This document shows, piece after piece, positions 13,779 through 64,000 of a DNA stretch of 64,000 bases. The notes beneath the pieces were generated by a model. That model searched no databases and was not told where the DNA came from. It worked only from the letters and a program-made list of their open reading frames with translations. How positions within the stretch are numbered: the first letter of the stretch is position 1; each line of letters opens with the position of its first letter. The position numbers and the translations under genes were made by a program. The stretch comes from Histomonas meleagridis (lineage: Eukaryota > Parabasalia > Tritrichomonadida > Dientamoebidae): the NCBI GenBank assembly GCA_020186115.1, contig WSYJ01000152.1, forward strand, positions 1-64,000. The letters are read 5' to 3'.

Positions 13779-14686
13779 TTCGCGCCTTTTTTAAATTTTC
13801 TCTCAATTTGGTTATGGTTATTCAGTTGTTCGACTCTAACCGTCAATAATAAAAATCTAATATCTCATGTTCTGAAACTCAATGATATAAATTATTAATG
13901 TATCAAATGAGAATCGTCATAATGAATATTTATTTGTCCATTTTGATAAAATTGATTTTTTATTAATGTTTCTATATCAAAAATAATATAATGTCACAAT
14001 AATTTCCTTTTCCTATATATTAAAGTGAAAGCTGTTTCATATTTTATATTTGGAAATGATTTCTTCTCATGGTTTTTGAGAAAAATTTGTTTTATATGAT
14101 CAATTATATCGTATTATCATTAAAAAAACCGGTGTAAATATCAGAAATTAATAACTTTTTCAATATTTTATTTCGAAAAAACGCTAAAAGATTTTCTTAT
14201 CGTTGAAATGATTAACAAAGGTAAAAATGGATCAAAAAATAAATAATATAAGTACAGCAATATTCATTAATGTAAATTAAGGAAAGTTTACAATAAATAA
14301 AAAGGTGAAAAAATGAAAGTGATCAATTCTCGAAAAGAAAAAAGGACAATCAATAATTCAATTACTTTCGATGGAATTTTTTTTGAAAAAACATAATTTT
14401 GGGTTTGAATGGTTTACAATGTATAATTGTTATGTTTATCTCCAAAAATTGCCAGGCAGTTTTTTGGCTGAAGCAGACCATAGGCGAAAATTCAATAATA
14501 TAAGCAAAGGAAAAACCCAAATATCTGTGGTATTATCCAATTTTATATTAATTATGAAATATTTTATATTTAATTTACTCTGCATAAAATCATCAAAAAT
14601 ATGAAGAGTACGTTTATTATATTTAATAACTTTACTTAATTTAATTTTCAATTAATATTTAGTCGGAACCACTCTGTTAATGGTCT
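13779..14686. other. Intergenic, no gene seen
   Basis: AT-rich sequence with only short chance frames on both strands. I see no RNA gene or repeat apart from poly-A/T tracts. Confidence 0.5.
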
Positions 14687-15082
14687 AAAGATATTTATTT
14701 GTTTTATATGAAAATTAATTTAATAATTTAGGAGATCATAATAATATTTGAAAATTATTTATCTTATTTCAGGCAGCATTTATTTATGCATCTGGAAATG
14801 GTCAAATAGAAATTGTTGAATTACTTCTTGAACAAAAAGGAATTGATATTGATGCGAAAAATATATATTTGTTTTATTTAAAATCTGTTTTAATAGTTTA
14901 ATATTTCAAAATAATATGTGGAAATTATTATTGTCATTTTATACAGCACTTATGTTGGCATCTGTATATGGTCATATAGAAATAGTTGAAATACTTCTTG
15001 AACAAAAAGGAATTGATATTAATGCTAAAAATATCATTTTGTTTTATTTCATATTTATTTTAATGATTTAACATTTTAAAAT
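14687..15082 (+). pseudogene. Fragment of an interrupted ankyrin-repeat gene
   Basis: Two complete ankyrin modules of exactly 90 nt (14773-14862 and 14943-15032) encode the T/A-A-x-x-x-A-S...IEIVE.LLEQKGIDI.AKN pattern. Each is preceded by an 80-nt AT-rich spacer (14693-14772, 14863-14942). A third spacer starts at 15033 and loses similarity near 15082. An AAAGAT codon pair at 14687-14692 marks the end of an otherwise lost upstream module. No start codon, N-terminus or C-terminus is present. Spacer length and position are the same as in the minus-strand array at 62342-64000, so the two derive from one gene family. Confidence 0.75.
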
Positions 15083-15168
15083 GACCTGCAAGTCACAAGT
15101 TAGCCTAAATTTTACATAAAATTTAAAATAGAATGTCAACAAAGATAAAATAATTGTTTTTTGTTTTG

Positions 15169-59102: not shown

Positions 59103-61125
59103 AGATGACTTTTGCAGGTGGAGCAAGGCGATTTCAACTTTGTACTATTGAACCAACCATTGATAAAACCAATGGACAAACAGGAGGATCTAATGGTACG
59201 TTAGTTTTATCACGTTTTGATGAAATTTTTATGATTAGTTGGACACCCATTAGTGGTTCACCTATGCATCATGTAGCAGTTATGCAAAAAAAAAAAAATA
59301 CAGAATCAGAAGAATCATGGGAATTTAACAAAAGTTTTAAACAAGAGTGTGTTCATGATTAAACTTTTACAACTTCATGAAGATTTTTCATTAACAATTT
59401 ATGGATATAATGAAGGTGAAGAACGACGATTTTCATATGAACCGATGGAATTTATCTCAGTTACAGAGTTAGTTGAACAACTTTTAATTAATGGTATTGC
59501 AGTTCCATCAGCAGATAAATCATATTCATTACAATTTTATAAACGATGTCATCGAGGAGTTTATCCATATACACCACCACATATTCAATTAGGTTTTGAT
59601 ACTTCATCAGAACCTTCTACAAAAAATTTTCCAGAAGATCTTAAAAAATTTTGGGATTGTTTACATAGTTTCTTTTTAACGTTAATTATTCATTTAGATA
59701 ATAGTGATACATTACCACGAGATCCACAATTTCCATTAGCTGAAGCAGCACGAGCTAATCATAAACGAATTTTAGAAGAAATTGATGAATATTCAGATCA
59801 TATTGGGCAAGAATATCAAAAAATTACGAGTGAAGAATGGGGTAATTTATTTGATGAAGAAGGACGAATTAAAAATTTTGAAGAATTTAAATTACGTTTA
59901 TTTCATGCAGGTATTGATACTGAAATATTAAATAAAAGCATTACCATTTGCATTTGGAGTTTATCCATCTAATAGTACTACTATTGAACGAGAAAAAACT
60001 TGATAAAGAATTAAGTAAAGAATATAAACAATTAGTTAATCAAGTTGAAAAACTTACACCCGATCAAATTAATAATAATAAACGAATTTCATCTGCATTT
60101 CGAGTTATTAAACATGATGTTAGTCGTACCGATCGCCAATTATTAGCATTTAAAGATAATGATGCAGAAGGACTTAAAATGGTTACACAACTATTACGTA
60201 CATATTGTATATTTAATCCACCGATTGGATATCTTCAAGGTATGAATGATTTATTTGTTCCAATATTATTAGCATTTTTACCACGTTGGGATGAAAAAGG
60301 ATATCCAATTAATGAAAATAATGAACGTATTGAATATGAAGAATATTATCCATCAATTTTTTGGTGTTTTGATGCTATGTTACATAATATTGATCATTTA
60401 AAATTATTAGCTAATGTTACAGAACAATGTAAAAAACAAGCAGAAACTATTTTTCAAATTATTTGTAAAGTATCACCACTTGCAGCTATTTGGATGCGAC
60501 GTAATTCACTTAAAGAACTTTTATGGTGTTATTCCGATTTTGTTTTATTATTTAAACGATCATTTAGTGACATTTGGTCAGTTTGGTTACAATTAAATTG
60601 TTCGCCATGTCCGCAAACGTGGTTAGCATACTTTGTGGCAGCGATAATTGTTCAAGGATTTAATGAATTGGCACAAATTACAGATGTTAATATTACTACG
60701 ATGATGGATAAGTTCCCAAAAAATTATGTCTAATATCCCATTCCATAAAATTGGGAAAACATCACTTTGGTTGGCAGATAAAGTTCCACCAACAATTGTT
60801 AATCGGAATGAAGAAATTGATGATAATAAAGAATTCTTATTCTTTGAAACTGAATGGACAGGTCCATGTAAAACAACACGAGAAAATAAAAAATAAAAAA
60901 TAAATAAAAAATATTTAATCAAAAATATTTAATCAAAAATATTATTTTTTAAAATGATTTTAATGGTTTAATGCCATCAAAAAATAAATTTGTTCAATAA
61001 AATTTCTGTTTTGTTCTCCGAAATATCAAGTTGTGAATGATTATTATTGTTTTAATCAACTGTCACTTTCCTTATCAGACAATTCGTTGGCAGGGCTGTC
61101 ACAACAAAGTTCCTTGTGAAACTTT
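59103..61125 (+). repeat. Right arm of 2.02-kb inverted duplication
   Basis: Inverted copy of 55222-57245, extending about 230 bp past the TBC stop codon with no poly-A tail, which points to DNA-level duplication rather than a retrocopy. Confidence 0.9.
59105..60896 (+). pseudogene. TBC-domain Rab GTPase-activating protein, copy 2 (frame-broken)
   Basis: Same gene as copy 1, with both TBC catalytic fingers encoded. Relative to copy 1 it has an extra G at 59357 and extra A's at about 59935, 59994-59999 and 60718-60723. A second difference near 59287 turns QQTQ into QKKK without changing the frame. Its upstream sequence is unrelated to copy 1 and lacks the AACGGTT box, so it may be promoterless. 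Confidence 0.75.
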
Positions 61126-62341: not shown

Positions 62342-64000
62342 TTAAAAGCCTTTATTAAAACCAAAGCCAAATCCATAGTTCATTGGATTTACCTTGCGAA
62401 CTTCATTAAGTTTATCTTCATTGTATTTAATTCCCTTTTGTCTTTTAAGAAGTTTAACCACATCATTTTTATTATATTCGGAAGCCCTTAATATTGCAGT
62501 CATTTCTTGATTGTCTTGTGCGTTAATATCAATTCCTTTTTGTTTTAGAAGAATTTTAACAACATCTTTTTTTCCAATTTTAGATGCTTTGATAAGTGCT
62601 GTTTGAAATCATTTAAATAATTACCAAATAATATATTAAAACAGAAAATTATTAATATAAATTTTAAATTTAATAAAAAAATATCTTTAGCATTTACATC
62701 AATATCTTTTTGTTGAAGGAGTAATTGTAATATTTCGATACGTAGTTTTTTAACATCACTTGAAAATATAATCATTCTGAATTTATCATCTTGAAATGCA
62801 TACATTAGTGCTGTTTCAAATATTTTTAATGATTTCCATATAATATTTTAAATCATTAAATTATTAAAATATACATTAAACAAAATAAATTTACATCTTT
62901 AGCATTAATATCAATTCCTTCTTGTTTAAGAAGTAATGTTACTATTTCTTTTTTACAAAATGTTGCATACATTAAAACTGTTTTAAATTATTTGTATAAA
63001 TTCCATATTTTATAAATAAAATTCAAATTAATAAAAATATATTTAAATAAAATAAAAAAATATCTTGTGCATTGATATCAATTCCTTCTTGTTCAAGAAG
63101 TAATTTGACCATTTCCGTTTTGCCATATTCACATGCTAAAATAAGTGCTGTTTTAAATCATTTGAATGAAAACCATATTTTATGAAGAAATTTTAAATTA
63201 TTTATAAAATCATTATGTGAATTCAAGAAATATCTTTTTCATTTAAATCAATTTTCGCATTTTCAAGAAGTAACTTAACTATTTCCGTATAACCATTTCT
63301 TGATGCATACATAAATGGTGTTTCATATATTAGTTAAAATATCCAAATATTAATATGAAATATCAAATTATTGATATAAACATTATCTTTAGCATATATA
63401 TCAAATTTATTACTTTCAAGAAATTCCTTAAAGATTTCAATTTTTTCATTTGTAGCTCCCATTCCATAATAAAGAGCTGTATGAATTAATTTTTATATAT
63501 TCCAAAAAATATTTTCAATTATTATAACAATGAAATAAACATTAATTAAAAACAATAAAAATCTTTAATGTTGACATCAATTCCTTTATTTTTAAGAAGC
63601 AATTTAACAATTTCTTTTTTATTAAATTCAGTCTTATTAATTTTAATATGAGATAAAGCATCCATTAGTATTGTTTGAAAAAATTAAAGCAATTTCCAAA
63701 TATTATATTGAAATTGAATATTTGTTAAATAGACTTTAAATAAATAAAATAAGCGTTTTTATCATTTAGATTTATTCCTTTTTGCTCAAGAAGTAATTTA
63801 AATACGTTGATTTGATTTGTTGATAAAGATACTGATATAGCTGTTTGAATTATAATGAAAAAACATGAAATATTTTAAGGAAATATTATATTATCTAAAA
63901 AAATTAATTATAAAATAAATAAATATCCACAGCATTAATATCGATTCCTTTATTAATAAGTAATTTAACAAGTTCGATACCTTTTGTTACTGCAAAGATT
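62342..64000 (-). CDS. Ankyrin-repeat gene interrupted by fixed-length spacers (5' end beyond window)
   Basis: Minus-strand modules with the ankyrin pattern T-A-L-x-x-A...V-K-L-L-L-E-Q-K-G-I-D-I-N-A-K-D, in order: 64000-63925 (partial), 63844-63755, 63674-63561, 63480-63385, 63321-63232, 63151-63062, 62981-62895, 62814-62683 and 62602-62342. Every complete internal module is a multiple of three and free of stops. The last holds two repeats without interruption and ends FGFGFNKGF-stop. Between modules lie AT-rich spacers with stops. Reading straight through is impossible, because most spacers change the frame, so the mature product would need their removal. I treat it as a probable gene because the modules keep their frame; a young pseudogene is the alternative. 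Ankyrin proteins are a very large trichomonad family with scaffold roles. Confidence 0.6.
62603..63924 (-). repeat. Eight conserved AT-rich spacers inside ankyrin repeats
   Basis: Spacers between the D/N codon of one module and the T codon of the next: 62603-62682, 62815-62894, 62982-63061, 63152-63231, 63322-63384, 63481-63560, 63675-63754, 63845-63924. Seven are exactly 80 nt and one is 63. Shared marks in the gene sense are ATTTATTTTATTTAAA-like sequence in the first 20 nt, a TGG (usually TATGGA or TTTGGA) near positions 56-60 and ATTT-x-AA just before ACA. The terminal repeat has 12 nt at this place, so 68 nt is inserted in each. Confidence 0.85.

Follow-up and report, generated by a model that had tools for sequence, protein, structure and literature searches.

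Split beta-turns in an ankyrin-repeat gene family of Histomonas meleagridis: 17-nucleotide elements that may be skipped in RNA

Results

The stretch of DNA analysed here, hereafter the window, comprises the first 64,000 nucleotides (nt) of contig WSYJ01000152.1 from the parabasalid Histomonas meleagridis, a single-celled parasite of poultry (C87:1-64000). Its minus strand carries, at positions 62342-64000, the 3' part of an ankyrin-repeat gene in which the beta-turns of the repeats are split. The upstream part lies beyond the window on the same strand of C87, with an ATG near position 65559; the N-terminal open reading frame (ORF) has no stops and aligns with a DUF3447/ankyrin-type ORF from another locus. 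Within the window, the gene consists of ankyrin modules separated by eight spacers and closed by a terminal exon. Seven modules are complete between spacers (90, 114, 96, 90, 90, 87, and 132 nt), and all seven are divisible by three and free of stops. A first-pass annotation of the sequence had described the complete modules in these terms but had counted eight of them; the length and frame properties stand, and the count does not. It had also reported that seven of the eight spacers are exactly 80 nt long with drifted sequences, and measurement on the minus strand bore this out. The eighth spacer is 63 nt long.

Viewed from the upstream side (all coordinates minus strand), the gene enters the window in a module at 63925-64000 that extends past its edge to 64008. 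The first spacer (63845-63924) contains four 17-nt elements and the codons TTA AAT CAT CAA (L N H Q), and it is followed by a 90-nt module (63755-63844) and by a second 80-nt spacer (63675-63754) with codons AAA TCA GGA CAA (K S G Q). Next come a 114-nt module (63561-63674) and an 80-nt spacer (63481-63560) for which the strict 20-nt register gives AAT AAT GGA CAT (N N G H); a free parse moves one element. The 96-nt module at 63385-63480 precedes the 63-nt spacer (63322-63384), which is without the first element and reads AAT, then three 17-nt elements with GAT GGA GAA (N D G E). Two 90-nt modules follow (63232-63321 and 63062-63151), with an 80-nt spacer between them (63152-63231; AAT AAA GGT AAA, N K G K) and another after them (62982-63061; AAA GAA GGA AAA, K E G K). 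The 87-nt module (62895-62981) is succeeded by a spacer of 80 nt (62815-62894) whose strict-register codons are AAT AAT GGA GAA (N N G E), one element again being moved by a free parse. The 132-nt module (62683-62814) carries an in-frame insertion, and the last 80-nt spacer (62603-62682) has codons AAA TCT GGT CAA (K S G Q). The terminal exon (62342-62602) is open as far as its stop codon, which occupies 62342-62344, and contains a module, an uninterrupted D-NQEM-T junction, the last repeat, and a C-terminal tail.

That last D-to-T junction measures 12 nt. The 68-nt excess of an 80-nt spacer over it, and the 34-residue repeat that results when 68 nt are discounted, had both been pointed out in the first-pass annotation and are correct. 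Among four window pieces tested against the Pfam ankyrin profile PF00023, the modules at 63062-63151 and 63232-63321 matched on their own (E=1e-8 and 2.6e-7, respectively), as did the terminal exon (E=1.2e-8); the 132-nt module scored 0.0095, under the curated cut-off. The two matching modules each cover profile positions 4-32 of 33, and thus four positions are missing, a number equal to that of the codons in a spacer. Position 2 of the profile is glycine.

We searched a genome assembly of 43.28 Mb in 121 AT-rich contigs, which encodes a protein listed by NCBI under H. meleagridis with 100% identity across 506 aa; the published genome is given as 43.4 Mb with 28.66% GC (PMC8529796). A DNA search with the spacer/module unit yielded at least 168 matches, the best 40 of 1548 first-look candidates having been scored. 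Forty clusters were grouped from this search, and 20 loci from among the best matches (L011-L030) supplied the spacer sample, in which a spacer was counted only between modules whose hidden Markov model match reached the relevant end. Spacers of 80 nt make up 200 of the 248 in these loci. Tests of diversity and selection used distinct sequences only, namely 165 of the 200 80-nt spacers and 148 of 189 90-nt modules.

An alignment of the 165 distinct spacers displays a 20-nt period of 17 conserved nucleotides plus three, repeated four times, with the consensus ATTTATTTGTTTTATTT-xxx-ATTTATTTTAATAATTT-xxx-ATTTCAAAATAATATTT-GGA-AATTATTTAAATTATTT-xxx, then ACA GCA CTT (T-A-L). Each 80-nt spacer is composed of four AT-rich 17-nt elements (A[TA]TT...ATTT) alternating with four codons. 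These codons, or slots, are the x-x-G-x of the ankyrin beta-turn D-x-x-G-x-T, i.e., the four residues that are absent from the modules. The one-point insertion of 68 nt (or 51 nt) described in the first-pass annotation is actually four (or three) separate 17-nt inserts, each of which precedes a codon.

The codon nature of the slots is evident from several properties. The slot triplets, at spacer positions 18-20, 38-40, 58-60, and 78-80, include no stops in the 165 spacers, while 33.1 are expected under column shuffling (minimum 20 in 5000 shuffles); slot 3 taken alone is not significant, with 0.9 expected. Slot 3 encodes Gly in 148 of the 165. In the gene of the window it does so in 10 of 11 spacers, by the synonymous codons GGA, GGT, and GGG, despite the drift of the surrounding elements. 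Common residues are K/N/D/E in slot 1, Y/D/N/K in slot 2, and E/K/N/Y/Q/R in slot 4. Uninterrupted loops in the same genome read D-NDGK-T and similar, and their residue profiles agree moderately with those of slots 1, 2, and 4 (cosine 0.78, 0.79, and 0.48), only nine such loops being available. A straight reading onward from the D meets a stop in 97 of the 165 80-nt spacers and in 6 of 14 distinct 63-nt spacers; simple read-through of the spacers therefore fails.

The elements have terminal sequences in common. Among 660 of them, A occupies position 1 in 92%, TT positions 3-4 in 93-95%, and ATTT positions 14-17 in 92-94%; in 128 elements from old, drifted arrays, positions 3, 4, and 14-17 are still the best conserved. 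None of the 660 combines a GT start with an AG end (32 start with GT, and none ends with AG), and inspection of the spacers by eye found neither a conserved GT nor a frame-keeping donor-acceptor pair. The earlier suggestion of a repeated intron-like element survives insofar as the non-coding sequence is copied with its module; the elements bear no mark of a conventional intron. The accompanying claim, that frame-constrained modules are copied along with length-constrained non-coding sequence, is upheld.

The pattern recurs throughout the genome. The first-pass annotation had proposed a genome-wide search for ankyrin genes with an 80-nt D-to-T gap; when this was run with an exact motif (GATATTAATGCNAARRAT, a gap, then ACAGC), a gap of 66-96 nt gave 1610 matches and the reversed pattern used as control gave none. 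Other gap classes, whose ranges overlap, returned 251 (36-66 nt), 137 (81-110 nt), and 35 matches (67-79 nt), again with controls of zero. Because the unit recurs genome-wide and the reversed control is empty, the spacer pattern is not due to chance. Gaps of 0-30 nt occur only twice (control zero); about 1,850 exact-motif spacers stand against two uninterrupted junctions. One of these two is the terminal repeat of a member of the same gene family, like the last repeat in the window; the other belongs to a different ankyrin family. The exact motif is carried by 139 of the 248 sampled spacers; a rough extrapolation, which assumes that the 20 best-match loci are typical, puts the genome total at about 3,300 spacers and 13,000 elements. 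A search with the N-terminal region found at least 164 matches (85 of 3822 candidates scored). We read this as a large family of real ankyrin genes in which the beta-turn of nearly every repeat is interrupted. At another locus, L045 (C55:646600-649600, minus strand), the terminal exon appears homologous to that of the window gene (TAIL..., with an uninterrupted N-NDEM-T) and continues in frame into a region rich in cysteine and histidine, possibly an additional domain.

Spacer length follows a simple rule, with 80 = 12 + 4x17 and 63 = 12 + 3x17. Of the 63-nt spacers, 17 of 18 parse as a codon (K/N/E/M) immediately after the D, followed by three elements with three codons. In all nine 83-nt spacers, slot 2 holds one codon more than usual (TGG ACT, for instance), and a single array supplies five of the nine; some 83-nt gaps among the matches listed genome-wide instead have the extra codon ahead of the first element, or have elements lengthened in A/T runs. 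The 20-nt unit occurs five times in the 100-nt spacers and seven times in the 140-nt ones. Such spacers, built of similar units, are found in L018 (plus strand, C57 about 472300-472630) and resemble ongoing tandem duplication of a 17-mer plus codon. The remaining 14 spacers, of 66, 75, 78, 79, 81, 82, and 84 nt, parse poorly or only with an altered element.

The modules are maintained as coding sequence. A stop is present in only one of the 148 distinct 90-nt modules, compared with 51.4, 48.9, 36.5, or 49.8 expected in four versions of blind drift. Among 198 spacer-bounded modules, four are not divisible by three (85, 89, 91, and 110 nt); we read the 85-, 89-, and 110-nt cases as boundary effects of odd spacers and the 91-nt case as a real frameshift. 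Only two of the 198, in L012 and L015, are truly broken. No stop occurs in the 23 spacer-bounded modules of the old, diverged arrays L011, L026, and L027. In 9 of the 20 loci an unbroken N-terminal frame leads into the first spacer, and there 0 of 87 modules are broken, versus 2 of 111 elsewhere. Arrays with an intact N-terminal frame include the gene of the window, L027, and L029. The frame changes in or after the N-terminal region in five loci (L012, L013, L014, L015, and L021), and six are partial or decayed; the change in L014 is at the N-terminal junction, and the intact N-terminus of L018 is part of its plus-strand gene. No 17-nt inserts were seen in the N-terminal region of the 20 aligned loci, and the breaks compared are shifts of a few nucleotides. 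The arrays do not behave like a pseudogene array, in which stops and frameshifts would build up with divergence, though some N-terminal regions are broken.

Per-site diversity amounts to 0.481 in slots 1, 2, and 4 and to 0.140 in the elements; four-fold sites (0.078) and framework positions (0.08) are lower. Slot codons are accordingly 3.4 times more variable than the elements and 6 times more variable than four-fold sites. Because they vary more than either non-coding or silent sites, they fit diversifying selection on the encoded protein. In the six module codons that vary most, diversity at codon positions 1 and 2 is 0.375; these "surface" codons were chosen after they had been seen to vary, and the high value is thus not an independent test. 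Across L011-L030, the hypervariable codons, above silent sites, are module codons 5, 8, 9, 11, 12, and 22 and slots 1, 2, and 4. These codons lie at surface or recognition positions of the ankyrin fold. Their pattern suggests a repertoire of binding proteins that is subject to diversifying selection.

The arrays appear to be absent from existing annotation. The annotated H. meleagridis protein P0013 ends in ...GIDINAQNI, exactly at a first spacer, while the genome continues with an 80-nt spacer having a GGA slot and with further modules; this suggests that annotation has missed the arrays. An RNA assembly (PRJNA935845) and tandem-mass-tag proteomics are reported to exist for the species (PMC10063853). 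Of 14 related proteins read from the ENA (37-59% identity), six (P0002, P0003, P0004, P0006, P0009, and P0014) end no more than one residue from the spacer start. P0007 reads through a stretch as long as an H. meleagridis spacer, by a count of amino acids made by eye, and then ends. Since the relatives' proteins end at the same point, the split is probably older than the species, as judged from protein ends. A sequence nearly identical to P0002 adjoins a transposase-like ORF in a contig of a metagenome-assembled genome (MAG), and thus P0002, at least, is DNA.

Among public genome contigs, two related loci were found, both without arrays; a pattern search of viral contigs gave no matches, and 139 stretches contained no relatives. 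Contig CALUSQ010000040.1 (L046), assigned to a MAG of Candidatus Gastranaerophilales, codes for a DUF3447/ankyrin protein of the parabasalid type (48% identity) and also has an ORF resembling a transposase; it is probably contamination from a relative of Histomonas. The predicted proteins P0022 (Tritrichomonas foetus) and P0028 (T. musculus) end shortly past a DIN... ankyrin loop, which might mean that other trichomonads have short introns overlooked in gene prediction, or elements akin to these.

A second, fragmentary array lies at 14679-15090 on the plus strand of the window, with two modules, two full 80-nt spacers, and a truncated third. Its first spacer (14693-14772) has codons GAA AGG GAA CAG (E R E Q) and precedes a module (AAFIYASGNGQIEIVELLLEQKGIDIDAKN) at 14773-14862; the second (14863-14942; AAA AAT GGA TAT, K N G Y) is followed by the last module (14943-15032) and the truncated spacer. 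At 59349-60733 (plus strand) there is a Rab-GAP/TBC gene in two frames, with apparent single-base shifts beside A runs that could be assembly errors or decay. Neither Rfam, at gathering threshold, nor a tRNA scan produced a match in the window.

Discussion

In this report, we describe ankyrin genes in which 17-nt AT-rich elements, normally four per repeat, are placed between successive codons of D-x-x-G-x-T. Even in their split state, the coding pieces are subject to selection at the level of the protein, and the elements are therefore probably skipped, most likely in RNA. We propose that the arrays would be transcribed and that every 17-nt element would be skipped, giving the cell a complete ankyrin protein. 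The skipping would most likely be RNA excision of ultra-short intron-like elements that have no GT-AG and leave one-codon exons, and recognition would probably depend on their constant length and on the termini that they share (A[TA]TT...ATTT) rather than on a fold. On the patterns in the DNA, we give this reading, a split ankyrin family read out by skipping each element, a slightly better than even chance of being right.

The principal competitor holds that the arrays are silent beyond the N-terminal domain, being relics or an archive whose modules are kept open by constant re-copying, through unequal crossing-over or gene conversion, with a few good units or expressed genes as the source. 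L012, L019, and L022 are strongly homogenised, and L019 (C86:189000-198900), with 33 module hits in a highly homogenised array, has open modules behind a decayed N-terminal region, from which it follows that homogenisation also keeps modules open. Proteins that end at the spacer (P0013 and, among the 14 ENA relatives, six) point in the same direction, as do the five loci with a frame change and the six that are partial or decayed. However, no uninterrupted recipient array of this family was found (2 uninterrupted junctions versus 1610), the old arrays L011, L026, and L027 are as free of stops as described above, and the slots exceed both elements and four-fold sites in variability, as protein selection predicts. 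Broken modules are also absent from the nine loci whose N-terminal frame is unbroken. We regard silent arrays as unlikely, while giving the idea real weight.

The remaining explanations differ over what is removed and where. Should the elements be retained in the mRNA, the ribosome might skip them by serial translational bypass or other recoding; near-constant length, AT-richness, and the want of splice signals would suit this, and bypassed elements of tens of nucleotides occur in phage T4 and yeast mitochondria. Bypass, however, depends on re-pairing of the peptidyl-tRNA at a landing triplet that resembles the take-off codon, whereas here TTT predominates as the landing triplet (T in 92-94% at positions 15-17) and the take-off codon would be GAT or any slot codon. 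An array such as L019 would require more than 100 hops, and we consider the idea improbable. A single intron in each repeat, conventional or otherwise and some 68-77 nt long, its inner variable triplets being accidental, accords with a spacer length that is tightly constrained and a sequence that is not read through (97/165 with a stop). It leaves unpredicted the stop-free, ankyrin-like, hypervariable triplets every 20 nt, the conserved Gly codon, the extra codons within a slot, and the 63-nt form that retains the first codon; the element ends are without GT-AG, and a fold test of low power found no conserved structure. This makes it very improbable. Finally, the elements could be eliminated at the DNA level, whether in a second nucleus, in a different type of cell, or at some other stage of life, in the manner of ciliate internal eliminated sequences, whose boundaries are resembled in form by short AT-rich elements with ATTT at both ends; no splice signals would be needed. 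Yet the uninterrupted motif occurs in the one assembly searched at just the two junctions already described (a terminal repeat and another ankyrin family) as opposed to 1610, and excision leaving one ATTT copy per element would, we reason, break the frame. We know of no nuclear dimorphism in parabasalids, and grant DNA removal scarcely any likelihood.

Several observations weigh against the skipping of discrete 17-nt elements. Some 81-84-nt gaps among the matches listed contain elements lengthened in A/T runs, and 17 nt is thus not absolute. Precise loss of an element with its codon kept is common only for the first (the 63-nt type, most of the matches listed); exact genome patterns for precise loss of the second, third, and fourth yielded 0, 1, and 0 matches. 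The lengths of 33 of the 48 non-80-nt spacers in the 20 loci, duplicates included, are divisible by three, but genome-wide gaps of 67-79 nt have no such preference (11, 11, and 13 of 35 in the three classes, counted from the listing), and we therefore made no use of a mod-3 rule for altered spacers. The elements are less conserved than four-fold sites (0.140 versus 0.078). L019 pairs open modules with an N-terminal region having 7 + 3 stops in two aligned pieces. RNAalifold, applied to 87 thinned spacers with flanks, returned an energy of 0.0, as did column-shuffled controls; because the controls also gave 0.0, the test has little power. Further, we know of no machinery that removes 17-nt elements without GT-AG from between 3-nt exons.

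How do these elements compare with known systems? Stentor and Bigelowiella nucleomorph introns have GT-AG ends. For H. meleagridis, 573-638 introns are reported, with no gene having more than one (PMC8529796). Trichomonas introns, of type A (56-196 nt) or type B (23-25 nt), carry GT/AG as well as extended motifs on the 5' side and a 3' motif fused with the branch site (PMC12316389). Trichomonad spliceosomal introns are alike in belonging to the same phylum, in being AT-rich, and in having very short examples; unlike them, the 660 17-mers have neither GT/AG nor the extended motifs. Sites of the form GTATGT...CTAACACA number 13 in the genome versus 4 for the reversed control. Introns of the trichomonad GT-AG type thus seem to be present, and the normal machinery would use a different signal. 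The 13 sites are probable introns of about 45-60 nt, several with an apparent internal hairpin.

Tiny introns of ciliates and nucleomorphs are of the same size class (15-18 nt). Blepharisma introns measure 15-16 bp and are called spliceosomal (PMC9942806); the Stentor introns are of 15 nt, and the Bigelowiella nucleomorph intron is of 18 nt (PMC12316389). By the heterotrich standard for tiny introns (15-16 nt, GT-AG), our elements are near in length, at 17 nt, and have no GT-AG; also unlike those introns, four elements here flank one-codon exons. Nonconventional introns of euglenozoans are characterised by variable borders and pairing of the intron ends (PMC12621601; PMC6221363; PMC4770533). 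Those of euglenids and hemistasiid diplonemids share with our elements the absence of GT-AG, an unexplained removal mechanism, and an abundance in the genome, whereas our elements hold a near-constant length and conserved ends, and the low-power fold test gave no sign of conserved pairing.

Bypass elements, such as that of phage T4 gene 60 and the byps of Magnusiomyces, are likewise short, untranslated, many-copied inserts within frames; they differ in that our elements have no take-off/landing match (TTT versus GAT and slot codons), reside in nuclear genes, and number four per repeat. Ankyrin/DUF3447 families of Trichomonas and Tritrichomonas have the same combination of DUF3447 with ankyrin repeats, and the portions of the literature searched contain no description of split beta-turns in them. 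Titles and the openings of abstracts on H. meleagridis ankyrins or splicing, on short or non-canonical introns, and on bypass likewise contain nothing comparable. As a whole, the anatomy fits none of the systems compared.

We judge it just short of an even chance, on the strength of the sequence patterns, that an undescribed RNA-processing or decoding system removes perhaps at least 10,000 17-nt elements with A[TA]TT...ATTT ends, down to single-codon exons, in a large ankyrin family that is under diversifying selection and in which the loop codons between the elements rank with the most variable positions. If they are removed from RNA, the elements would count as some of the shortest introns on record, lacking GT-AG and having three-nucleotide exons between them, and they would far outnumber the species' annotated introns (573-638; PMC8529796). 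If true, this would challenge current limits on the smallest functional intron and exon, and would point to an undescribed machinery in a parabasalid.
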